A stretch of 53,106 bases of DNA from Candidatus Beckwithbacteria bacterium (lineage in GTDB: Bacteria > Patescibacteriota > Microgenomatia > UBA1400 > CG1-02-47-37), in NCBI GenBank assembly GCA_026397255.1, contig JAPLVF010000005.1, forward strand, positions 1-53,106, in the 5' to 3' direction. The notes beneath the pieces are model-generated. The model saw nothing but the letters and a program-made list of their open reading frames with translations, did no database searches and was not told where the DNA came from. Of the stretch, positions 10,322-49,652 are shown one piece after another. The number at the start of each line of letters is the position of its first letter. The stretch's first letter is position 1. The position numbers and the translations under genes were made by a program.

Positions 10322-11323
10322 ATGGCCAATCAATTTTTTAAATCGCGTTCCGGTAAAATCCCCTACCCGCTGTTTTTCCCAGACGCGACCAGAGCGGTAG
10401 TGCGGACATTGACATCCGAAGATTTAATTAAGACTAAAACTTCGGGAATTTTGGTTAACACTTTGCATTTATATTGGGATTTAGGCGAAAGTGTTTTGAA
10501 AAAATTTAAGGGAATCAGCAACTTTATGAATTGGCCAGGGGCAGTAATTTCCGACTCAGGCGGATTTCAGGTAATGAGTTTAGCGAAAAAAGGGTTAGGG
10601 AAAGTGACTGACGAAGGGGTGAGATTTAATTTGACGAAAAAGAAACAAGTGCTGTTGACTCCGGAATTATCAATTAAGTACCAAAGCCTTTTAAAAACTG
10701 ATTTAATGGTGGTCTTGGATGATTTTACCCCGCCAGGAGTGACGAAAAAACAAGCGCGAGAAACAGTGGAGAGAACGATTGAATGGGCGAGAAGATGTAA
10801 AACAGAGTTTGCCAAAATTTATAAAAATAAAAAAGACCGACCTTATCTTATCAGCGTGGTTCACGGAGGAGATTACCTGGATTTGAGAAAAGAATGCACC
10901 GAGCGGTTAGCAAAAATTGGTTTTGACGGTTATGGTTACGGCGGTTGGCCGATGGACAGAAACGGAAAATTTAATTTAAAGGTGGCCAGCGTTATTAGGG
11001 ATAACGCGCCCAAGGATTCTTTGTTGTACGGTTTGGGTGTGGGTAAGCCGGAAGATATTATCGCTTGCTACAAATTAGGCTTTAAAATCTTTGATTGTGT
11101 GATTCCGACCCGGGATGCCCGGCATGGCCGATTGTTTGTGTTTAAAAACAAAGGTTTTGATTATGAGAGTATTTATCCGCAAAAGAGCAGATATAAAACT
11201 GACAGAAAATGGGGCTATTTACACCATTTATTTAAGATTAAGGACCCAGCTGCTTGGAGGTTGGCGACGATGAATAATTTAAGCTTTTACTCTACTTTAA
11301 TGGCAAAACTGCGCGAAGCTTAA
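10322..11323 (+). CDS. tgt: tRNA-guanine transglycosylase-like protein lacking the zinc site
   Basis: A 333-residue Tgt-fold (beta/alpha)8 enzyme. Tgt exchanges guanine in tRNA for a 7-deazaguanine (preQ1 or queuine) at position 34. Visible are SDSGGFQ (77-83, with the expected general base Asp78) and FDCVIPTRDARHG (257-269, with the expected nucleophile Asp258). Two features are unusual. The CxCxxC...H zinc site expected around residues 280-320 is absent, with no cysteine there and MNNLSFY where HNL is normal. The GGLAVGE-type base-pocket loop reads YGYGGWPMDRNG (204-215). No queuosine biosynthesis gene lies in the window. It may be a paralogue with altered substrate. Confidence 0.85.
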   Translation: MANQFFKSRSGKIPYPLFFPDATRAVVRTLTSEDLIKTKTSGILVNTLHLYWDLGESVLKKFKGISNFMNWPGAVISDSGGFQVMSLAKKGLGKVTDEGVRFNLTKKKQVLLTPELSIKYQSLLKTDLMVVLDDFTPPGVTKKQARETVERTIEWARRCKTEFAKIYKNKKDRPYLISVVHGGDYLDLRKECTERLAKIGFDGYGYGGWPMDRNGKFNLKVASVIRDNAPKDSLLYGLGVGKPEDIIACYKLGFKIFDCVIPTRDARHGRLFVFKNKGFDYESIYPQKSRYKTDRKWGYLHHLFKIKDPAAWRLATMNNLSFYSTLMAKLREA

Positions 11324-12506
11324 GATGAAGTTTTTTGGCAAAGCGGTGGGATTCGTTGCGCAGGTATTGAAGCAATTGAAAGCCGGGATTGTCGGACTTT
11401 ACCTGCAGGGAGAGAACCTGTAGGCTAATAAGGCGGTCGGGACGTTTAGCCAGACCGATGACCGGAATATTCCAGGTAAGAATTTTTTTAACGGCCTTAA
11501 GTTGATTTTTACCGCCGTCAATCAAGATTAAATTGGGGATTCCCCACTCCAAATGGCGCTGCCGGCGCGTTAAAACTTCCTGCAGCATTTTTAAGTCATT
11601 AGGAGTGTTTAAAGAACAAATTTTGAAATAACGGTATTGATCTGGGCGAGGCTGACCGTTGATAAAAACAACCATAGAGGCAGTCGGGTTTTTACCCAAA
11701 AGGTTACTGACGTCATAGGCTTCAATCCGGGTTAAAGGATAGGCCGGCGGGAGAGGGAAAATACGTTTTAACAAACGCCTTAAGTAAATAATCCGTTCGT
11801 TGGTTTTGTCTGAACTTAAAATCGGCAGGTCAAGTTTTTCGGTGATTGGCGCCGAGGATAAATTATTTATGGCTTGGATTTGATTGCGATAATCAGCGGC
11901 CGTTTCATAATCTTGCGTGCGGGCGGCGGTTTTTAACTTTTCTTTTAATTGAGTTAAAAGCAGTCTTTTTTTACCGCCAAGTAAAAGTTTCAGATGATTA
12001 ATTATTTGTTGGTAATCGGAAGCAGAAATTTTACCACAACAAGCACCGGGACAAAGATGCAGGTGGTAGTAAAAGCAGGCTTTACCAGGTTTGGCGTTAC
12101 AATAGGGAAAAATTCTTCTCAAGGTTTTTAAAATAAAATAGAGTTGTTTTGAAGAAGAAAATGGGCCAAAGTCGCCGCTTTTTCGGGTAACTAAAACTTT
12201 TGGAAAAGTTTCTTTAGTGATGCTGACGTAAAGTTTGGATTTGTCGTCTTTTAACAAAATGTTGTATTTAGGCTGATAAGTTTTTATGAGCTCTGCTTCC
12301 AGTAAGATTGCTTCAAATTCCGAATCTGACTGCTGAAATTTTATTTTGGTTCTTTCGGCAAGCATCTGCCTGGTTTTAGGACTACTTTGATTAATTAAAG
12401 TGTAGCTTTTTAAGCGATTGTTAAGATTTTTGGCTTTGCCAACGTAAATTACTTCCTTCTTTTTATTTAAAAACCAATAAACTCCTGGAGTTTGAGGAAA
12501 CTTCAT
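11292..12506 (-). CDS. uvrC: Excinuclease ABC subunit C, short form
   Basis: A 404-residue UvrC, against roughly 600 in model bacteria. The order is: GIY-YIG nuclease (GVYWFLNKKKEVIYVGKA, start to about 80), cysteine-containing region (about 145-160), UVR motif (KLKTAARTQDYETAADYRNQI, about 190-210) and the UvrC RNase H-like domain (IEAYDVSNLLG, LILIDGGKNQL, GLAKRPDRL, NESHRFAKKLH). It stops just after HRFA, so the C-terminal HhH module is missing. A copy of the RAYT palindrome encodes residues 361-369 (LQVLSLQV). It overlaps uvrA by 4 bp, and its end overlaps the convergent tgt gene by 32 bp. Confidence 0.93.
   Translation of the reverse strand: MKFPQTPGVYWFLNKKKEVIYVGKAKNLNNRLKSYTLINQSSPKTRQMLAERTKIKFQQSDSEFEAILLEAELIKTYQPKYNILLKDDKSKLYVSITKETFPKVLVTRKSGDFGPFSSSKQLYFILKTLRRIFPYCNAKPGKACFYYHLHLCPGACCGKISASDYQQIINHLKLLLGGKKRLLLTQLKEKLKTAARTQDYETAADYRNQIQAINNLSSAPITEKLDLPILSSDKTNERIIYLRRLLKRIFPLPPAYPLTRIEAYDVSNLLGKNPTASMVVFINGQPRPDQYRYFKICSLNTPNDLKMLQEVLTRRQRHLEWGIPNLILIDGGKNQLKAVKKILTWNIPVIGLAKRPDRLISLQVLSLQVKSDNPGFQLLQYLRNESHRFAKKLHLKLRAVLPLK
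11402..11424. repeat. RAYT-type palindrome inside uvrC
   Basis: Arms CCTGCAGG (11402-11409) and CCTGTAGG (11417-11424) enclose the loop GAGAGAA. It is within the coding region and keeps the frame open. Confidence 0.85.
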
Positions 12507-17382: not shown

Positions 17383-17387
17383 GAGTG

Positions 17388-17993
17388 ATGGTCAAAAGGG
17401 CAGTAGTGTTTGCTAACGGTGAATTGGCGGATGTTTCCTGGCTTGCAATTAAAAAAACAGATTTATTAATTGGGGTGGACGGCGGAACAAAATATATCCG
17501 AAAGCCTGATTTGATAATCGGCGACCTAGACTCATTAAAGAAAGTGCCGAAAAATATTCCAATAATAAAATATCCCAGAGATAAAGATATGACTGATATG
17601 GAACTGGCGCTGGAATACTGTTTAAAACAGAAGATTGAGGAAGTGATTTTGGTCGGGTTTTTAGGTAGACGCTTGGACCACATGATTAGTAATTTAATGG
17701 TTTTAGCAAAATTACCAATTAAAGTATCGATTATTGAGGGAAACCAAGAAATATTTTATTGTAAAAATAAAATAGAGATTAGTGGGAAGAAGAACGATTT
17801 AATTTCTCTGATTCCCCTACTGGGAGATTGTCAGGGTGTAATGACTCAAGGTTTAAAATGGTGCCTACAAGGAGAGAACCTGCAGGTTGGGGAAAGCAGA
17901 GGGGTGAGCAATGAGATGCTGGGTAATAGATGTACTGTTGGTTTGAAACGAGGATGTTTACTAATTATTCACACCTTCAAGGATGTTCCTTGA
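17388..17993 (+). CDS. Thiamine pyrophosphokinase
   Basis: A 201-residue enzyme that makes thiamine diphosphate from thiamine and ATP. Signatures are DGG (31-33), GDLDSL (45-50), RDKDMTDMELAL (64-75), GRRLDH (93-98) and the C-terminal thiamine-binding strand GLKW...GESRGVSNEM. The cofactor would serve the 2-oxoacid oxidoreductase at 25 kb. Residues 159-167 (CLQGENLQV) are encoded by a RAYT-type palindrome, and the stop codon lies in a second palindrome (17974-17996). ATG 17388 is preferred to a GTG at 17385 because of the -10 spacing. Confidence 0.88.
   Translation: MVKRAVVFANGELADVSWLAIKKTDLLIGVDGGTKYIRKPDLIIGDLDSLKKVPKNIPIIKYPRDKDMTDMELALEYCLKQKIEEVILVGFLGRRLDHMISNLMVLAKLPIKVSIIEGNQEIFYCKNKIEISGKKNDLISLIPLLGDCQGVMTQGLKWCLQGENLQVGESRGVSNEMLGNRCTVGLKRGCLLIIHTFKDVP
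17864..17886. repeat. RAYT-type palindrome inside the TPK gene
   Basis: CCTACAAG, loop GAGAGAA, CCTGCAGG. It is in frame, and the encoded segment has the length expected for the family. Confidence 0.8.
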
Positions 17994-17996
17994 AGG
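17974..17996. repeat. Palindrome containing the TPK stop codon
   Basis: Perfect 9-bp arms CCTTCAAGG and CCTTGAAGG around ATGTT. The TGA at 17991-17993 lies in the right arm. A partial third arm, CTTGAAGG, follows at 17999-18006. It may also serve as a terminator-like structure. Confidence 0.7.
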
Positions 17997-27220: not shown

Positions 27221-27913
27221 ATGAGTGCGCTTTACATTGTGTCAACGCCGATAGGCAACCGGCAGGATATTACTTTAAGAGCCATTGAAGTTTTAGATCA
27301 GGTCAATTATCTTTTGTGCGAAGATACCCGGAAAACCAAACTATTGCTCGATTTTTATCATATTAAAAAATCGCCGATGTTAATTAGTTTTTATGAGCCG
27401 GTGGAAGAACAGAAAATCCCTCAAATAATTGGGTGGTTGAGAGAGGGGAAAAATGTCGGACTGGTGACAAATGCCGGGACTCCCCTACTCTCTGACCCCG
27501 GATTTAAGCTGGTCAGAGCGTGTGTGAAGGAGAATATTCAGGTAATTCCAATCCCCGGGGCGTCGGCCCTATTGGCGGCCTTGGTGGTAAGCGGTTTGCC
27601 AACCGATAAATTTATGTTTTTAGGTTTTTTACCCAAGAAATCAGGGAAGAAAGAAAGATTATTAAATAATGTTGTCGAGATTTTAAAAATTCAAACTCAG
27701 ACAGTAATTTTGTACGAGTCTCCTTTTCGGATAATTAAGACTTTGGAATTGCTACAGAAATTAATGCCGGAAAGCCAGGTGGTTATCTGCCGCGAATTGA
27801 CCAAAAAATTTGAAGGAGTGATCAGAGGAAAACCAGAAGAACTTATCAAAAAATTGAATCAGGGCAAAGTTAAAGGTGAAGTGGTGATTTTGATATCGAC
27901 GATGTCCAGATGA
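27221..27913 (+). CDS. rsmI: 16S rRNA (cytidine1402-2'-O)-methyltransferase RsmI
   Basis: A 230-residue tetrapyrrole-methylase-fold rRNA methyltransferase that modifies C1402 in the ribosomal P site. Signatures are LYIVSTPIGNRQDITLRAIEVL (start), LLCEDTRKTKLLL, GLVTNAGTPLLSDPGF, PIPGASALLAALVVSGL and LYESPFRIIKTL. The C-terminal extension of long RsmI proteins is mostly absent. ATG 27221 was chosen because the family begins there. Its 3' end overlaps the convergent acyl-CoA synthetase gene by 55 bp. Confidence 0.94.
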   Translation: MSALYIVSTPIGNRQDITLRAIEVLDQVNYLLCEDTRKTKLLLDFYHIKKSPMLISFYEPVEEQKIPQIIGWLREGKNVGLVTNAGTPLLSDPGFKLVRACVKENIQVIPIPGASALLAALVVSGLPTDKFMFLGFLPKKSGKKERLLNNVVEILKIQTQTVILYESPFRIIKTLELLQKLMPESQVVICRELTKKFEGVIRGKPEELIKKLNQGKVKGEVVILISTMSR

Positions 27914-29835
27914 TGGGGGCTGATAATGGCCGGGTTGATATCGATAGTTTGAATTTGGGGATAATCGGACACTAATTGGGAAAGATTTAGAATTAATTTA
28001 ATCACTGGTTTTAAGTCAATAGGGGGTAATCCCCGAGCGCCCAGTAAAATCTGGCCAAGTTTGGTTTGCTTGATCAAATTAAGAATAATGGTTTGGTTAG
28101 TGGGTAAAAATGTCCGAACAATATCCTGGTAAAGCTCGGTATAAATACCGCCGGAACCAAAAGTCAGCAAGGCCGGGTAGCCGGGTTGGCGATTCATTCC
28201 GATAAATAGTTCATGACCTTCACTAATCTGCGGCTGGGCTAAAATGCCGGTAAAGGTGTGACTTATTTTTTTGAAAGCAGTTTTAACGGCGGTTAAAGAT
28301 TTTAAATTAAGATAAATAGCTTTATTTTCAGTGCGGTGATAGCCCGCGGATGAATCAGTTTTTAAAACAATCGGAAAACCCAACTCTTGAGTTAAGTAAA
28401 TTAAATTATCAGGTTTTGCCGAAACCGTTTTGATAAGAGGCAAATAATAGATTTTGGCTAATTGGCTGATCTGGTGCCAAGAAAGCTGGCCTGAAGGGAG
28501 AGAGATTTTTTGGCGGTTAACTGTTTTGAAAGAGCGGACAGGGTAAAGCGGACGATGATTCCGATGATGCCAATAAGAAAATAACAGGCTTAAATATTTG
28601 ACGGCGGATTGGGGAAAATCAATGGTGGCAATTTTATTCTGACGAAGAATTTCCTTGGCGGCATCATTAATCCGGCCGCCTAAAAGAGAAACGACCACCG
28701 GTTTTTTAACATGTTTAAATTTATCGACCACAGTCTGGCAGGTTAACTCCAGCTGTGTGCCAGCCTGAGGTGTCAAGATAATTAAAAAAGCATCTTTAAT
28801 ATGATCCTTAATGACTTGATTAAAAGCGGCCACAAAACGATCAGTGAGGGCGTCGCCGAAAACATCTAAGGGTTGAATAACATCTAAGTTAAACTGACTG
28901 GCACTGTCAGTGGCCAAAATCCCCGGCCCACCGGCATTAGTGACAATTGCTAAGTCGTTATCGGTTAAAGGCGGCTCAAGAGAGAAAATTTCCAAGAGAT
29001 CGGCAAATTCTTCCAGAGTATCTACCTGCAAACAACCGGCCTGTTCAAGCAAAGTGTTAACAATTTTGCGATCAGGACTGAGAGCGGCAGTGTGACTTTG
29101 AGCGGCGACTTTGCCTTTGGTGGTCAGGCCGCCGAAAATAACCACAATGGGTTTAATCCGGCTAACCCGGCTGGCAATTTTTAAAAATTCCGCTGGGTCG
29201 GCAAAAGACTCAAGATATAAACCGATAACTTTAGTGTTTTTATCAGTTGATAGGTAGGAAAGCAGGCCATTTTCGGTGATGCCAATCCGGTTGCCTAAAC
29301 TCGCGAATTTGGAAAAACCCAGATGCTCGGTTTTAGCCCAATCAAATAAGAAGGAACCAATAGCGCCGGATTGAGTCACTAAACTGATGTTTCCAGCCGG
29401 CGGGGCGGTTTTAGCAAAGGTCAGGTCTAAACCTGCCTGAGGATGGGCATAACCCAGGCAGTTCGGGCCTAAAACTTCCAGGGAAGAGTTGGCTATTTTC
29501 GCCTTAATTTCGCCTTCAAGGAGAGAACCTGCAGGGCCGATTTCCGAAAATCCGGAAGAAATAATAATCACGGAATTAACTTTTTTATTAAGACAGTTTG
29601 AGATTACTAGTGGAATAAAAGCGGCGGGAATGACGATGACGACTTGATCAACAGAATCAGGAATGGCTGTAACTGAAGCAAAGCAAGGACGGTTAAGCAC
29701 GTGCTTGTATTTGGGATTAACCGGGTAAACCGGACGAGAATAATTCAATAATTTAGAAAAAATTTGGTAACCGAGTTTGGATTTATTAGGAGAAGCGCCG
29801 ACAACCGCGATTGATCGAGGAGAAAATAGATTCAT
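27859..29835 (-). CDS. ADP-forming acyl-CoA (acetyl-CoA) synthetase, fused alpha-beta
   Basis: A 658-residue enzyme that turns acyl-CoA, ADP and phosphate into acid, CoA and ATP. The CoA-binding domain (SPRSIAVVGASPNKSKLGY, GPNCLGY) is followed by the succinyl-CoA-ligase-like domains (SLVTQSGAIG, SHTAALSPDRK with His248 as the likely phosphohistidine) and a C-terminal ATP-grasp domain (GFPIVLKTDSSAGYHRTEN). With the oxidoreductase it forms the usual fermentative acetate-ATP route. Residues 101-108 (PAGSLLEG) are encoded by a RAYT-type palindrome with no family length change. It overlaps gpmI by 4 bp. Confidence 0.9.
   Translation of the reverse strand: MNLFSPRSIAVVGASPNKSKLGYQIFSKLLNYSRPVYPVNPKYKHVLNRPCFASVTAIPDSVDQVVIVIPAAFIPLVISNCLNKKVNSVIIISSGFSEIGPAGSLLEGEIKAKIANSSLEVLGPNCLGYAHPQAGLDLTFAKTAPPAGNISLVTQSGAIGSFLFDWAKTEHLGFSKFASLGNRIGITENGLLSYLSTDKNTKVIGLYLESFADPAEFLKIASRVSRIKPIVVIFGGLTTKGKVAAQSHTAALSPDRKIVNTLLEQAGCLQVDTLEEFADLLEIFSLEPPLTDNDLAIVTNAGGPGILATDSASQFNLDVIQPLDVFGDALTDRFVAAFNQVIKDHIKDAFLIILTPQAGTQLELTCQTVVDKFKHVKKPVVVSLLGGRINDAAKEILRQNKIATIDFPQSAVKYLSLLFSYWHHRNHRPLYPVRSFKTVNRQKISLPSGQLSWHQISQLAKIYYLPLIKTVSAKPDNLIYLTQELGFPIVLKTDSSAGYHRTENKAIYLNLKSLTAVKTAFKKISHTFTGILAQPQISEGHELFIGMNRQPGYPALLTFGSGGIYTELYQDIVRTFLPTNQTIILNLIKQTKLGQILLGARGLPPIDLKPVIKLILNLSQLVSDYPQIQTIDINPAIISPHHLDIVDIKITTSPLTLP
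29513..29535. repeat. RAYT-type palindrome inside the acyl-CoA synthetase gene
   Basis: CCTTCAAG, loop GAGAGAA, CCTGCAGG. The left arm has diverged by two bases from the best palindrome, while the loop and right arm are intact. Confidence 0.75.
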
Positions 29836-31460: not shown

Positions 31461-32700
31461 TGGCAATTTCCAGTAAACGATTATATTTAGCAATTCTTTC
31501 CCCGCGGGAAGGAGCGCCAAACTTAGTGTAGTCGGCACCTAAACCAACAGCCAGGTCGGCAATAAAGGTATCATTAGTTTCTCCGGAACGATGGGAGACA
31601 ATAATTTTCCATTGATTTTCCCGGCAATATTTCACCACCTCAACTGTTTCGGAAACGGTACCGATTTGGTTGGGTTTAACTAAGATGGCGTTACAAGCCT
31701 TTAAATTAATGGCTTTTTTAACCCGTTCTTTATTGGTAGTTAATAAATCATCTCCAACTATAAGAGTTGTTTCCCCTAACTCTTCAGTTAATTTAGTCCA
31801 ACCTTCCCAGTCATCCTGAAACAGGGCATCTTCCAAGAAGAATAAACGATACTCGCGGTTAAGTTCAAGATAATAAGTAATTAATTCGAGGCGATTAAAA
31901 GACTGAGCCCGATCTTTAATCTGATAGTGATTATTGTGAAAAAAATAGCCAGCGGAAACATCCAGACCTAAAAAAACATCCTGAGTAAATTTATAAGGCG
32001 TCAGCTTAATGGCTTCCAGAATGACCTGTAAGGCATCAAGATTGGTAAATAAGTTGGGAGCATAGCCACCTTCATCGCCAACACTGTGAATCGCCTGACG
32101 CTGAATCAAGACTTTTTTGAGATTTTTGTAAATGTCGATGCCAATTTGCAAGGCTTCGTGATAGGCAAAACGGTTAGAGGGAATTATATGGAATTCCTGG
32201 AAATCAAGGTTGCCGGCACCATGAGCGCCGCCATTAATAATATTAAAAGTCGGAGTCGGCAAATGTTTAAAATCTTTAACTAAGCCGTACTTTTGAGATA
32301 AATAAAGATAAACAGGCAGATTGTAAGCGGCAGCAGCGGCCTTGAGGCAAGCAATCGAGACGGAAAGTAAAGCATTGCCTCCCAACCGGCTTTTATTGGT
32401 GGTACCGTCAAGTTCAATTAAAAGTTGATCAATTTTGGTTTGATAACTGGGGTCAAGACCGATAATTTTGGGAGCAATAATTATATTGACATTGGCCACG
32501 GCTTTTAAAACGCCCAAACCAGAAAAACGCGATAAATCATTATCCCTTAACTCAAGGGCTTCATATTTGCTGACAGAAGCTCCGGAAGGAATGCTGGCAG
32601 TACCGAGTTGCCCGGTATCCAGTTTGATACAGGTTTGAATAGTTGGATTACCTCGGGAATCAAGAATTTCCGAGGCTTTAACGCTAATGATTTTAGCCAT
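31447..32700 (-). CDS. eno: Enolase
   Basis: A 417-residue enolase, converting 2-phosphoglycerate to phosphoenolpyruvate. Visible blocks are EILDSRGNPTIQT (11-23), NIINGGAHGAGNLDFQEFHI with the catalytic loop residues, SVGDEGGYAPN, LFFLEDALFQDDW, and LVKPNQIGTVSETVEVV followed by SHRSGETNDTFIADLAVG. The length is slightly below the usual 430. It is translated with the PEP synthase gene (8-bp overlap), so substrate and product enzymes are coupled in one mRNA. Confidence 0.97.
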   Translation of the reverse strand: MAKIISVKASEILDSRGNPTIQTCIKLDTGQLGTASIPSGASVSKYEALELRDNDLSRFSGLGVLKAVANVNIIIAPKIIGLDPSYQTKIDQLLIELDGTTNKSRLGGNALLSVSIACLKAAAAAYNLPVYLYLSQKYGLVKDFKHLPTPTFNIINGGAHGAGNLDFQEFHIIPSNRFAYHEALQIGIDIYKNLKKVLIQRQAIHSVGDEGGYAPNLFTNLDALQVILEAIKLTPYKFTQDVFLGLDVSAGYFFHNNHYQIKDRAQSFNRLELITYYLELNREYRLFFLEDALFQDDWEGWTKLTEELGETTLIVGDDLLTTNKERVKKAINLKACNAILVKPNQIGTVSETVEVVKYCRENQWKIIVSHRSGETNDTFIADLAVGLGADYTKFGAPSRGERIAKYNRLLEIANEQL

Positions 32701-34990
32701 GGATTAATTTCTTTTCAGCCTGATAAATAAGATTACGGGTTTGATCAATCATATCCGGAGAAACAGAAACGCTGGTAATCCCCCATTTGACTAACTTTTC
32801 GGTTAAGTCCGGGTAAATTGACGGCGCTTGGCCGCAAATTGAACAGCTAACCCGATTGGTTTTACAGGTGGTGATAATTTTTTCCAGAGATTTTAATACG
32901 GCCGGATTGAGTTCATCATACTCAGAGGCAACTTCGCTGTTATCCCGATCAACGCCTAAAGTCAGCATGGTGAGATCGTTGGAGCCAATGGAAATGCCGT
33001 CAAGACCGACGTCAAGAAAATCTTCCAATAAAATGACATTGCTGGGAATTTCTGCCATCATCCACAGTTGGAAGGAGGGGGAACGGACTAGACCGTGAGC
33101 ACTGACAATTTTTTTGACGGAGATAAGCTCTTGAACTGTACGAACGAAAGGAATCATTAACCAAAGGTTTTTAAAGTCGTGGTGATTACGGGCTATTGTT
33201 AAAGCTTTTAATTCCAGATCAAAAACCTTTTGATCATGGATATAACGAAAAGCTCCCCGGTAGCCGATCATGGGGTTAAATTCTGTCGGTTCGTAGGCTT
33301 TGCCGCCAATCAAATTAGAATACTCGTTAGTTTTAAAATCAGTGGCCCGATAAACTACGGGACGGGGATAAAAAGCTTTGGCAAATTTAGTTAAACCATC
33401 GACTAAACTGGAAATAAATTTATCTGTTTTGCCGTCAGCGATTAATTTTTTAGGATGGATGCCGATTTGGGCAATCATAAATTCCGCCCGAAGTAAGCCA
33501 ACGCCGTCGACATTTTTCTGAGCGGTAGCGGCAGCTAAATCCGGTTCGCCGAGGTTAACATAAACCTTGGTAGCGGTAGGAAAAAAGTCAGCCACAAATT
33601 TTTTCGGATTAGGAGCAAGTGGTTTTTTAGGTGAAGCCAATTTAATTTTAGAAGGAGTTAGATGGCCGCCGGAGAAAATTTGGCCGGTTATACCATTGAC
33701 AGTAATGACTTTTCCAGAAGTCAAAATTTTAGTGGCAGTACCGGTACCAACGATACAAGGAATACCTAGCTCCCTCGAAACTATAGCCGCATGGGAAGTT
33801 TGACCGCCTTTGTTTGTAACAATGGCGGCGGCTTTTTTCATGGCCGGGACAAAGTCCGGTGTAGTCATGTCAGTAACCAAAATTTCCTGGGGTTTAAGTT
33901 GATTAATTTCCCGGGCGGAGGACAGAATTCTAACAAAGCCGGAAACAATCCCTGGACTAGCAGACTCACCTTTCAAGATTAATTTTCCGGTAATGGTAGG
34001 GGAATTTTTGGAGACAAGTTCTTCCTGAATGGTGGTGATCGGGCGGGACTGAACAAGATAACATTTATTTTTTTCAAAAGCCCACTCAACATCCTGAGGA
34101 AAGAAGTAGTGCTGCTGGATTTTATGACCGAGCTTAGCCAGAGTAATGATTTGCTGATCAGTTAGTTTTGGCCGAGAAATATTTTTCTTATTAATTTTTA
34201 CTTCCTGATTTTTGTTGTTAACTAAAATTAACTGTTTGGTTTGCGGATTGACTTGTTTTTGTAAAATTTTCCAGGAAAGTTTTTGCACTAAATAATGGTC
34301 GGGGGTGTAGATTCCCTGAACTATCTGTTCCCCCAACCCCCAAATAGCCTCGATAACAATTTGATTTTTGTCGTTACTAATCGGGTTAACGGTGAACATA
34401 ATGCCAGAAATCTTACTCTCGACCATTTTTTGAACCGGAACAGCCACGCCGACATTAAAATGACCATAACCTTTTTCTTCGCGGTAGAAAATCGCTCTGG
34501 GTTCAAATAAAGAGGCCCAACAGCGACGGACGTTCTGAACAACATTGGCTTCACCTTTAATGTTTAAAAAGGTTTCCTGTTGACCGGCAAAAGAAGCATC
34601 AGGTAAGTCTTCGGCAGTGGCCGAGGACCGGACGGCAACGAGGCTTTGAGAAAAACCATGGCCCAGGCTTAAATATTTTTTGATTATCGGCAGAGAAATT
34701 TCTTCAGGAATGGGAGAATTAAGAATTAATTTTTTGATTTGGGCAGAAACTGAGTTTAAAGATTTAATATTTTTAAGATCGTGGTCAGCCAAAATCGCTT
34801 TAATTTTTGGAACCAATTTATTTATTTTCAAAACATGAAAGTAAGCCGCGGCCGTCACGATAAAACCAGGCGGGACAGAAAAACCAGCTTGGGTTAATTC
34901 ACCTAGGTTGGCCCCCTTACCGCCGACAATAGCAACATCTTCTTTACAGACTTCGTGAAACGAAACAACAAATGGCAGGTCTTTGGACAT
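32693..34990 (-). CDS. ppsA: Phosphoenolpyruvate synthase
   Basis: A 765-residue PEP synthase. The N-terminal ATP-binding domain has VGGKGANLGELTQAGF (22-37) and VRSSATAEDLPDASFAGQQET. The phosphohistidine domain has GGQTSHAAIVSRELGIP with His400. The C-terminal TIM barrel ends with SICGQAPSIYPDL, carrying the catalytic Cys. The enzyme makes PEP from pyruvate, ATP and water. In organisms lacking pyruvate kinase it is sometimes proposed to run in reverse. It heads the glycolytic operon. TATCCT, 6 bp before the ATG on the minus strand, is a weak -10 candidate. Confidence 0.95.
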   Translation of the reverse strand: MSKDLPFVVSFHEVCKEDVAIVGGKGANLGELTQAGFSVPPGFIVTAAAYFHVLKINKLVPKIKAILADHDLKNIKSLNSVSAQIKKLILNSPIPEEISLPIIKKYLSLGHGFSQSLVAVRSSATAEDLPDASFAGQQETFLNIKGEANVVQNVRRCWASLFEPRAIFYREEKGYGHFNVGVAVPVQKMVESKISGIMFTVNPISNDKNQIVIEAIWGLGEQIVQGIYTPDHYLVQKLSWKILQKQVNPQTKQLILVNNKNQEVKINKKNISRPKLTDQQIITLAKLGHKIQQHYFFPQDVEWAFEKNKCYLVQSRPITTIQEELVSKNSPTITGKLILKGESASPGIVSGFVRILSSAREINQLKPQEILVTDMTTPDFVPAMKKAAAIVTNKGGQTSHAAIVSRELGIPCIVGTGTATKILTSGKVITVNGITGQIFSGGHLTPSKIKLASPKKPLAPNPKKFVADFFPTATKVYVNLGEPDLAAATAQKNVDGVGLLRAEFMIAQIGIHPKKLIADGKTDKFISSLVDGLTKFAKAFYPRPVVYRATDFKTNEYSNLIGGKAYEPTEFNPMIGYRGAFRYIHDQKVFDLELKALTIARNHHDFKNLWLMIPFVRTVQELISVKKIVSAHGLVRSPSFQLWMMAEIPSNVILLEDFLDVGLDGISIGSNDLTMLTLGVDRDNSEVASEYDELNPAVLKSLEKIITTCKTNRVSCSICGQAPSIYPDLTEKLVKWGITSVSVSPDMIDQTRNLIYQAEKKLIHG

Positions 34991-35023: not shown

Positions 35024-35054
35024 TACACCTGCAGGGAGAGAACCTGTAGGTGTA
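35024..35054. repeat. RAYT palindrome, upstream flanking copy (best arms)
   Basis: Core CCTGCAGG (35028-35035), GAGAGAA, CCTGTAGG (35043-35050), with pairing extended by four bases each side (TACA/TGTA), giving 12-bp arms with one mismatch. It lies directly before the transposase gene, and its right edge overlaps that gene's -10 box. Confidence 0.88.
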
Positions 35055-35058
35055 TACT
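35053..35058 (+). promoter_or_regulatory. -10 box of the RAYT gene, fused to the palindrome edge
   Basis: TATACT begins inside the extended right arm of the palindrome and ends 7 bp before the GTG start at 35066. The -35 region would be in the hairpin. Confidence 0.5.
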
Positions 35059-35065
35059 AAAATAT

Positions 35066-35692
35066 GTGCCCGCCAAAAATGTAATAAAAGAGTATGAGAG
35101 GAATGCTTATTACCATCTGTATAATCGCGGAGTAGCTAAAACCGCAATTTTTTTGGATAATCAGGACTATAAAACCTTTCTTTATTACTTAAAACTTTAC
35201 TTGAGTTTTCCTGATAAAGAAGCTGCCTTAACTAAAATTCCCCCATCAAGGAAACTAAGAAATTACGCTGGTCAAATAAATTTGATTTGTTATTGCCTAA
35301 TGCCCAATCATTTTCACCTACTAGTCTTTCAAAAGGATCCGCAGACAATAAATTTTTTTATGAAATCTTTAGGAACAAAATACTCAATGTATTTTAATAA
35401 GAAATATAAGCGCGTCGGTTCATTATTTCAAGGACCTTATAAGGCGGTGGAAATCACTAGTGAAAATCAGTTATTATATTTATCAAAGTATATTCATCGC
35501 AACCCTATAGGTCTTACAAGGAGAGAACCTGTAGGCTATAAATACTCCAGCTATACGAATTATTTAGGACTAATAAATCAGGTTTGGGTAAAACCGCTGG
35601 ATTTTATCGGCAAAGATTATAAAAGCTTCGTGGAAGAAATTGATGAGAGGGATAGTTTCTTTACTAAAAACATTATTCTTGAGGATGATTGA
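35066..35692 (+). CDS. REP-associated tyrosine transposase (RAYT, Y1/HUH family)
   Basis: A 208-residue Y1 transposase-like protein. The HUH motif is NHFHLL with His82 and His84. The tyrosine region is SLGTKYSMYFNKKY (101-114) followed by the conserved RVGSLFQGPYKAVEI. The helical end has YIHRNPI and SSYTNYLG. RAYTs cut single-stranded palindromes near GTAG/CTAG-type tetranucleotides and are linked to spread of REP sequences. Palindromes with GTAG arms flank the gene on both sides (35024 and 35698), and a third lies within codons 149-157. The start is GTG, 7 bp after TATACT. Confidence 0.92.
   Translation: MPAKNVIKEYERNAYYHLYNRGVAKTAIFLDNQDYKTFLYYLKLYLSFPDKEAALTKIPPSRKLRNYAGQINLICYCLMPNHFHLLVFQKDPQTINFFMKSLGTKYSMYFNKKYKRVGSLFQGPYKAVEITSENQLLYLSKYIHRNPIGLTRREPVGYKYSSYTNYLGLINQVWVKPLDFIGKDYKSFVEEIDERDSFFTKNIILEDD
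35513..35535. repeat. RAYT-type palindrome inside the transposase gene
   Basis: CTTACAAG, loop GAGAGAA, CCTGTAGG. It encodes LTRREPVG of the transposase C-terminal part, with the frame open. Confidence 0.8.
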
Positions 35693-35697
35693 AGATC

Positions 35698-35724
35698 GAC
35701 CTACAGGGAGAGAACCTGTAGGTC
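35698..35724. repeat. RAYT palindrome, downstream flanking copy (perfect)
   Basis: GACCTACAGG (35698-35707), GAGAGAA, CCTGTAGGTC (35715-35724), with perfect 10-bp arms. It starts 5 bp after the transposase stop and also lies just after the convergent PGI/PMI gene, so it may work as a two-way terminator. Confidence 0.9.
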
Positions 35725-35735
35725 GGATTAGTTCT

Positions 35736-36737
35736 CTACTTCTCTAATTGTTTCTTGAAGTAGTCAACCCAAGGGATCGAGGCCGGATTAATTCCATAAA
35801 GCTGAGACAAGTAGTAGGTGGCAAAACCGGATAAAGTAAAGGCTTCCAAGACCTGAGTCAATTTTGACGGGCCGGTCAGATTAATTGAGGCAGTAGCAAT
35901 TGACTGTTGCTTAACGACATCCTGAGTTAAAGCAAAACGTTTCTGAATCCTAGGAGTATAAAATTTTGAATTAATAAAGATAAATAGGGCGGTTTTTTTA
36001 AGACTGGCCGGATATTTCAGCCCTTCCATTAAATGATGATTTAGTTCGGAAATATACCGATAGTCAGAAATCATTTTGGCATTTTCGTTAATTTGATTGG
36101 CAAAGCCATTACCAAAACCTTTTAAGAATTCGGCAGTAATGATAAATGGATGCCTGTCTTTTAAAAGCGGGGCTAATTTTTGGGCTTGACTGACTAATCG
36201 ATCGGCTTGTTGACGGATAAAATTAATGGCGGCCATAATCTCTGCCTCATCAATCTTTAACAACCCCAAAGAATGCAATAAACCCATGTGGCCAAATAAC
36301 AAGTAACCAGCGCCGATGCGCGGTTGGCCGCAAGGGTTAAATTTTTGGGGATTAAAAATATAGCCGGGAACGTCAATTATTTTTCGGCTGCTGATTTGAA
36401 TAATCTGGGCGCTTTTTTTTACAGCCTCCTGAGCGCAGCTAATAACTTCTTCAGTGGTACCGGAATAAGAAGATAAAATTACCAAAGTATCAGCATTAGC
36501 GTAAGCGGGTAAAGTATAATCCTCCACAATTTCATAAGGCAGAGTAATCCGGTCACGGAAAAGCTCTTTGACAGTTTTAGGGGTAAAGCGGGAACCACCC
36601 ATGCCGCAAACAACTATATTTTTAACGCTTTGGTATTTTGGGGGGAATTTAATTTTGGAACTTTCCTGCCAAGCCTCAAAACACTGCTCGGGAAAAAATT
36701 TAAGGGATCCGAAAACATTTAAAGGATCAAGGTTCAT
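35736..36737 (-). CDS. Bifunctional phosphoglucose/phosphomannose isomerase
   Basis: A 333-residue SIS-domain isomerase interconverting glucose-6-P or mannose-6-P with fructose-6-P. The first SIS domain has VVCGMGGSRFTPKTV and ILSSYSGTTEEVISCAQEA. The middle has LFGHMGLLHSLGL. The second domain includes NENAKMISDYRYISELNHH. The C-terminal LSGFATYYLSQLYGINPASIPWV matches the bifunctional PGI/PMI family. It overlaps the phosphomannomutase gene by 4 bp, so both hexose-phosphate enzymes are co-expressed. Confidence 0.9.
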   Translation of the reverse strand: MNLDPLNVFGSLKFFPEQCFEAWQESSKIKFPPKYQSVKNIVVCGMGGSRFTPKTVKELFRDRITLPYEIVEDYTLPAYANADTLVILSSYSGTTEEVISCAQEAVKKSAQIIQISSRKIIDVPGYIFNPQKFNPCGQPRIGAGYLLFGHMGLLHSLGLLKIDEAEIMAAINFIRQQADRLVSQAQKLAPLLKDRHPFIITAEFLKGFGNGFANQINENAKMISDYRYISELNHHLMEGLKYPASLKKTALFIFINSKFYTPRIQKRFALTQDVVKQQSIATASINLTGPSKLTQVLEAFTLSGFATYYLSQLYGINPASIPWVDYFKKQLEK

Positions 36738-47152: not shown

Positions 47153-47175
47153 TCTTCAAGGATAATCCCTGTAGG
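47153..47175. repeat. Degenerate RAYT-type palindrome with altered loop
   Basis: TCTTCAAG, loop GATAATC in place of GAGAGAA, CCTGTAGG (47168-47175). A duplicated CTTCAAGGAT unit lies on the left side (47144-47153 and 47154-47163). It lies in the spacer upstream of tRNA-Lys. Confidence 0.5.
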
Positions 47176-49629: not shown

Positions 49630-49652
49630 ACTACGAGGAGAGAACCTGTAGG
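49630..49652. repeat. RAYT-type palindrome after rplS
   Basis: ACTACGAG, loop GAGAGAA, CCTGTAGG (49645-49652). The copy ends 1 bp before the rplS stop, in the position of a transcription terminator for the pyrG-rplS operon. The rest of the 193-bp gap shows no gene. Confidence 0.75.

Follow-up and report, generated by a model that had tools for sequence, protein, structure and literature searches.

The window analysed here, a 53,106-nucleotide stretch of a Candidatus Beckwithbacteria genome, carries a transposase-like gene with the same palindrome on either side. This raises the question of whether enzyme and palindrome belong to one system and, if they do, how the palindrome reached its other positions. 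RAYTs are regarded as transposases that have become domesticated.

The enzyme and its locus

The RAYT (TnpA-REP) gene lies at 35066..35692 on the forward strand and encodes 208 amino acids from a GTG start. Its protein matches Pfam Y1_Tnp (E 1.7e-9) and scores 35 bits against the NCBIfam model REP_Tyr_transpos (REP-associated tyrosine transposase), below the curated cut-off of 80. A search of the PDB with the single protein sequence returned no match, and a profile search with the RAYT profile returned a weak match to ISDra2 TnpA. For a structure model built with 27 relatives as input (pLDDT 85.8), the top Foldseek match in the PDB was 4ER8, the E. coli TnpA-REP in complex with a REP hairpin (E 2.4e-6), followed by the ISDra2 and IS608 transposases. 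The HUH motif (codons 82-84, 35309-35317, forward strand) and Tyr142 (35489-35491, forward strand) supply H82, H84 and the presumed catalytic Y142, all invariant in the 27 relatives. The fold, the Pfam match and the two invariant histidines bear out the HUH transposase with His82/His84 that an earlier note on this DNA had described. Further motifs recognized by eye are NHFH, FQ, YIHRNP and a C-terminal SSY.

Characterised TnpA-REPs recognise their hairpin on single-stranded DNA (PMC8266576). By analogy, the window enzyme is likely to recognise and cut its own hairpin as single-stranded DNA, probably on the lagging-strand template.

The gene stands between a PEP synthase-like gene (32693..34990, reverse strand) and a phosphoglucose isomerase-like gene (35736..36737, reverse strand). 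Both neighbours are kept, in the order ppsA-RAYT-pgi, in two further genomes of the Beckwithbacteria family, GW2011_GWC1_49_16 (CP011210.1, L215; here G002) and G003. The RAYTs of the three genomes are 57-58% identical, and the locus carries a different palindrome in each of the three at the upstream, second internal and downstream positions.

The F1 palindrome family

The palindromes that border the window RAYT, CCTGCAGGGAGAGAACCTGTAGG upstream (35028..35050, forward strand) and CCTACAGGGAGAGAACCTGTAGG downstream (35700..35722, forward strand), confirm the flanking pair reported earlier. Both form stable hairpins as single-stranded DNA (folding z -5.2 and -7.0). They belong to a family with a 23-bp unit, F1, whose conserved 16-nt core, comprising the loop and 3' arm, is GGAGAGAACCTGYAGG.

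A count over the whole window genome (G000; 895,369 bp in 19 contigs), as the earlier note had suggested, gives 14 copies of F1 with an identical core in all 14, and no core at one or two mismatches was found in this genome. The left arm varies among the copies and sometimes has the form of an older family, CCTTCAA. Conservation ends sharply at the limits of the 23 bp. The core is a 16-mer in which a single position is two-fold; chance predicts about 0.001 occurrences in this genome, and the pattern read backwards occurs 0 times, so the F1 copies are not due to chance. The core is absent from all 88 related genomes searched, in which no RAYT is closer than 65% identity to that of the window. 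The possibility that F1 is equally common in relatives lacking this transposase did not hold.

The search recovered each of five further copies listed earlier, at 11402, 17864, 29513, 35513 and 49630, all on the forward strand. That at 35513..35535 is a true copy, but it lies inside the transposase ORF itself, where it occupies the second internal slot in frame, encodes LTRREPVG and has an imperfect left arm (CTTACAA). Three others are likewise present but fall within a uvrC-like gene (11402..11424; gene 11292-12506, reverse strand), a thiamin pyrophosphokinase (TPK) gene (17864..17886; gene 17385-17993, forward strand) and a CoA-ligase-like gene (29513..29535; gene 27859-29835, reverse strand), so that they are not extragenic REPs. 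The copy at 49630..49652 directly follows the stop codon of the ribosomal protein L19 gene (49654-49980, reverse strand) and has the left arm ACTACGA. A sixth listed site, 47153..47175 (TCTTCAAGGATAATCCCTGTAGG), had been taken for an F1 copy with an altered loop. This was rejected, as the sequence matches the family of another RAYT of the same genome, on contig C7 at 24602. The window also contains a palindrome of this C7 type that the earlier list lacked, CCTTCAAGGATGTTCCTTGAAGG at 17974..17996, overlapping the TPK stop codon.

F1 departs from canonical REPs in several respects. The tetranucleotide that guides RAYTs belongs ahead of the hairpin (PMC6006769, PMC8266576). In F1, the GTAG that had been read as a RAYT recognition signal at the stem foot sits within the 3' arm and is GCAG in 6 of the 14 copies. 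No base outside the 23 bp is conserved among the 14 copies, including 5' of the hairpin, which leads us to reject a GTAG guide; the canonical 5' GT[AG]G foot is likewise missing from F1. Rather than being extragenic, 11 of the 14 copies lie inside ORFs, the RAYT gene among them, and inverted REP pairs of the REPIN kind are not the unit of this family. Two other RAYT traits are present: hairpins of a private dispersed repeat family border the gene, and the gene does not move as an insertion sequence, given paralogues that are 30-62% identical and one locus in three genomes.

Away from the RAYT, F1 copies are solitary, while the three at the RAYT share one orientation. Those within genes occur in either orientation relative to the host gene, and the two at 35513 and 17864 fold poorly as single-stranded DNA (z -1.1 and +0.9). 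The strand reading GAGAGAA is the G-rich strand in all 9 copies with a clear skew. This fits a lagging-strand template, although it is weak evidence, given the few copies and the mostly positive skew of the contigs in this assembly. In two genes, F1 encodes residues of the C-terminal tail: GatB (C8:341-1654), which ends in ...PTGREPAGLAK, and SecA (C13:102651-105380).

Several RAYTs per genome, each with its own palindrome

The window genome encodes six RAYTs, single-copy paralogues with pairwise identities of 30-62%. Each is flanked by a different palindrome, and the families have 4-14 copies. RAYT homologues are present in 30 of the 89 genomes searched. With six in this genome alone, these figures run against the earlier view that reduced genomes usually lose such elements. 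Named homologues come mostly from Microgenomates-type Patescibacteria, the closest from Candidatus Beckwithbacteria.

Palindromes cluster near their own RAYT: when copies away from RAYT genes are summed over all six families, 10 are no more than 25 kb from the cognate RAYT, where 1.8 would be expected. The fold, the motifs, the copies on the flanks and this clustering agree with the earlier proposal of a RAYT-type enzyme that has a dispersed palindrome family of its own in a reduced genome. We consider it likely that the locus is a REPtron, consisting of a RAYT of the HUH/Tyr single-stranded DNA nuclease type and a private 23-bp hairpin, with spread as proposed below.

Other families show further patterns. 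One has 9 copies in a related genome, G001, and 11 in G003, with 0 in both G000 and G002. Another, with the core GGAGACTCC (e.g. CCTGCAAGGAGACTCCTCGCAGG and GCTGCGAGGAGACTCCTCGCAGG), is found on contig C11 at about 73.7 kb, in the CobO gene, and at about three other places in G000; no RAYT of this genome has matching flanks, and the family is possibly the relic of a lost RAYT. Three genes hold palindromes of two families each: TsaD (C12:5-1108), C1:12015-14495 and C13:72207-73307, the last with F1 and F6. These genes look as if they had repeatedly tolerated such elements. Unlike the window locus, where the palindrome differs between genomes, the 71% identical RAYTs of two genera at C13:170012 (L012) and G002:825625-826260 share one palindrome, ATCACACACC[C/G]GGTGTGTGAT. 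At one RAYT locus, L084, the upstream, internal and downstream copies all have arms with identical mismatches (CCTACAAGGTCTCACCTTGAAGG). A perfect arm would place a TAG stop in the reading frame of the internal copy, and the flanks may therefore carry a copied constraint that arose from coding.

Fixed palindrome slots inside RAYT genes

We compared each RAYT gene with the sequences on either side of it, first in 50 and later in 111 non-redundant homologues (<90% identity). Only two places in the gene, around codons 50-55 and 150-155 (reference numbering), stood out clearly from the background in similarity. The first precedes the HUH motif, and the second comes directly after the helix of the catalytic tyrosine. 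Upstream and downstream flanks share a palindrome in 98 of the 111 RAYTs. The first internal site is filled in 36 and the second in 63, and 78 have an in-frame palindrome at one or both; two other ORF stretches, used as controls, gave 1 and 0. Among the peptides that these in-frame elements encode are LQGxSLK and FKDSPCRL. In the window RAYT, the first internal slot (codons 50-58, 35213..35239, forward strand) is without a palindrome, although it holds one in many relatives. The window RAYT is thus a member of a group of Patescibacteria RAYTs with a predicted hairpin at up to four fixed positions: upstream, two in frame and downstream.

The palindromes that fill these slots differ between RAYTs. 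The flank palindrome is common to about 2% of RAYT pairs whose proteins are less than 50% identical, to 24-55% at 55-70% and to 94% at 70-75%. Each RAYT has its own palindrome, whose similarity rises with that of the protein. An internal copy is closer in sequence to the flanks of its own gene than to the equivalent slot in the nearest relative (Wilcoxon p 0.001 and 0.0002), and the similarity score between the first and second internal copies is 19.9 within one gene and 9.9 between genes. Across the RAYTs compared, palindrome sequence follows the locus and not the slot, and slot positions persist while their sequences change.

Palindrome slots shared by host genes of different genera

The same pattern extends to genes unrelated to the RAYTs. 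At one position in TPK (slot B), palindromes occur at an equal codon and in equal phase in three genera: CCTACAAGGAGAGAACCTGCAGG in G000, ACTTCAAGGATCAACCTTGAAGT in G002 and ACTTCAAGTAGAGTACTTGAAGT in G001. In each genome the slot is filled by a resident family or a close variant, and the element of G001 is identical to the internal copies of that genome's own RAYT. A second position (slot A), 98 bp upstream of slot B, is occupied in G001 and G002, again by each genome's own family. Exact slots are also common to G000 and G002 in a membrane-protein gene (C13:72207-73307) and in CobO; for the families of the CobO elements, neither genome has a matching RAYT. About 0.002 such coincidences between F1 and the G002 family would be expected at random. 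Comparison across these genera shows that some host-gene positions have been retained and filled with each genome's own palindrome. PheT was rejected as a further exact slot on inspection: palindromes of two genomes share a loop, yet their positions are offset by about 15 nt, as if this tolerant loop had been hit independently in each.

Many of these elements have no net effect on protein length. Those in TPK, CobO and IMPDH overlay solved homologues (3LM8, 4HUT and 1VRD, respectively) without an indel. We made 50 anchored comparisons with homologous sites scored as palindrome-free; in 38 of them the net length difference was at most 2 amino acids from zero, and the exceptions ranged from -9 to +18. 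The underlying alignments are of moderate protein identity, an imperfect palindrome is present at a few of the sites and not all comparisons are independent. A plain 24-nt insertion at every site is thus unsupported, although there are clear exceptions. Homologues have gaps of 4-6 amino acids at the C13 gene, and differences of +8 and +11 amino acids occur elsewhere, including at some G002 sites.

Replacement or insertion

The exact retention of slots, the many length-neutral sites and the invariant loop and 3' arm of F1 next to a variable left arm speak for replacement. We tentatively propose, at slightly less than even confidence, that spread occurs largely by replacement of resident hairpins. 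Hairpins would be exchanged with, or converted onto, resident or partly matching sites; a shift in the specificity of the enzyme would then lead to genome-wide turnover of its palindromes, and new insertions would also arise and be tolerated in surface loops. The pattern suggests that one short sequence was copied over another across the genome. For F1, the claim of recent spread is partly right, but, to judge from the sites that different genera have in common, some copies seem to have taken the place of older palindromes and not to have entered empty sites.

Several points count against this explanation. Cutting, movement and replacement are all inferred; several in-gene copies fold poorly as hairpins; and the insertion-like sites (gaps of 4-6, +8 and +11 amino acids) and the PheT offset speak against replacement itself.

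The main alternative is ordinary RAYT-mediated insertion followed by selection, to which we give a substantial chance, though one short of even. Palindromes would insert often and near the RAYT, and only in-frame hits in tolerant surface loops would survive, namely in two loops of the RAYT and in loops of other proteins. Shared slots would then reflect how few sites tolerate insertions, without any resident being overwritten. The two PheT palindromes in one loop fit this alternative, as do the gaps of 4-11 amino acids in homologues of the C13 gene and at some G002 sites, the local clustering of copies and the differing reading phase of the second slot among distant RAYTs. It fits less well with the exact codon and phase common to the three genera at TPK slot B and with the exact C13 and CobO sites, with the roughly 0.002 coincidences expected at random for F1 against the G002 family, or with the length-neutral overlays on solved homologues.

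A stricter form of replacement is possible but rather doubtful. In it, the RAYTs of these minimal-genome bacteria would spread their hairpin chiefly by overwriting resident palindromes and coding stretches that partly match, site for site and with length unchanged, so that a shift in specificity rewrites all slots. If it were true, conversion and not insertion would be the way in which this mobile element propagates, and the slots in the RAYT's own gene and in host protein genes would all have been rewritten to the new palindrome.

The internal palindromes could instead be functional parts of the RAYT gene, such as an autoregulatory mRNA or ssDNA hairpin selected to match the specificity of the enzyme. 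Palindromes at one or both of two fixed positions, as in 78 of 111 RAYTs, with copies that match their own flanks, would be expected of such a part. We nevertheless consider this unlikely: one or both internal copies are missing from many RAYTs, the first was either lost from the window RAYT or never present there, the second copy of the window RAYT folds poorly, and unrelated host genes show what looks like equal overwriting.

It is very improbable that the palindromes have nothing to do with the enzyme and flank it by accident as a chance repeat, terminator or RNA element. The poor folding of in-gene copies and the inferred nature of the enzyme's activity on the hairpin would allow it, but each of the six RAYTs has a private family, palindrome and protein diverge together, flanks match in 98 of 111 RAYTs and the 23-bp unit is sharply bounded. 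A terminator or RNA element is further disfavoured because in-gene copies lie in both orientations and some do not fold. Least probable of all is an IS200/IS605-type insertion sequence moving with its ends, which we reject despite the shared fold family, as the paralogues are divergent and single-copy, the orthologues are syntenic in three genomes and the palindromes elsewhere stand solitary.

An enzyme gene with its own putative substrate at fixed in-frame sites, and orthologous genes of related genera in which some positions stay while the palindrome is exchanged, provide a natural record of changes in substrate specificity. The slots retained across genera offer a direct way to ask whether REPs spread by insertion or replacement. 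Some strongly reduced Patescibacteria genomes hold several such systems, which would rewrite short stretches of conserved proteins (TPK, CobO, IMPDH, UvrC, PheT and others).

Comparison with known systems

Our literature search on RAYTs in Patescibacteria/CPR and on concerted evolution of REPs found nothing relevant, although absence elsewhere is unproven. In Proteobacterial REPtrons, each enzyme has one private REP family, with a hairpin-bordered gene and dispersed copies (PMC2817692, PMC6006769, PMC8266576). The systems described here resemble the REPtrons of E. coli, Pseudomonas, Stenotrophomonas and Marinomonas in their HUH/Tyr enzyme, the presence of several systems per genome and the co-evolution of enzyme and REP. 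Unlike those, they have no 5' GTAG foot and only 4-14 copies per family, mostly solitary and often intragenic, and their palindromes sit inside the enzyme gene at two fixed sites. Like REPINs, the palindromes are non-autonomous and dispersed with a RAYT (PMC3116915), but they are mostly single 23-bp units and not inverted REP doublets.

Rickettsia palindromic elements and intragenic REPs are likewise short palindromes that sit in the reading frame of unrelated protein genes. Intragenic REPs are known, and recB has different REPs at about one site in two Xanthomonas species (PMC3733652). Here, in contrast to both, each main family has a cognate RAYT that carries the element at fixed sites.

In-frame REPs within the tnpA-REP gene itself have been described for subclass 2.4 (Bertels group 4; Cyanobacteria/Bacteroidetes) and called unique to it (PMC6006769). 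The window group shares this feature. In subclass 2.4, however, the insertions lie mostly between HUH and Tyr and vary in length, whereas here they are at codons of about 50 and 150, with no similarity peak within codons 82-142. The motifs also differ, with FQ and YIHRNP here and WQ and YIxNNP in subclass 2.4. By eye, they are closer to subclass 2.1 (Bertels group 1; NH[YF]H, FQ, Y[IV]HLNP and C-terminal SS), for which automatic and manual searches found no associated REP (PMC6006769), unlike the matching flank palindromes in 98 of 111 RAYTs here. The lack of a GTAG foot, as judged from the F1 copies, would also set these RAYTs apart from the known kinds. The fixed double slot outside the HUH-Tyr interval, together with the turnover of slots across genera, looks new.
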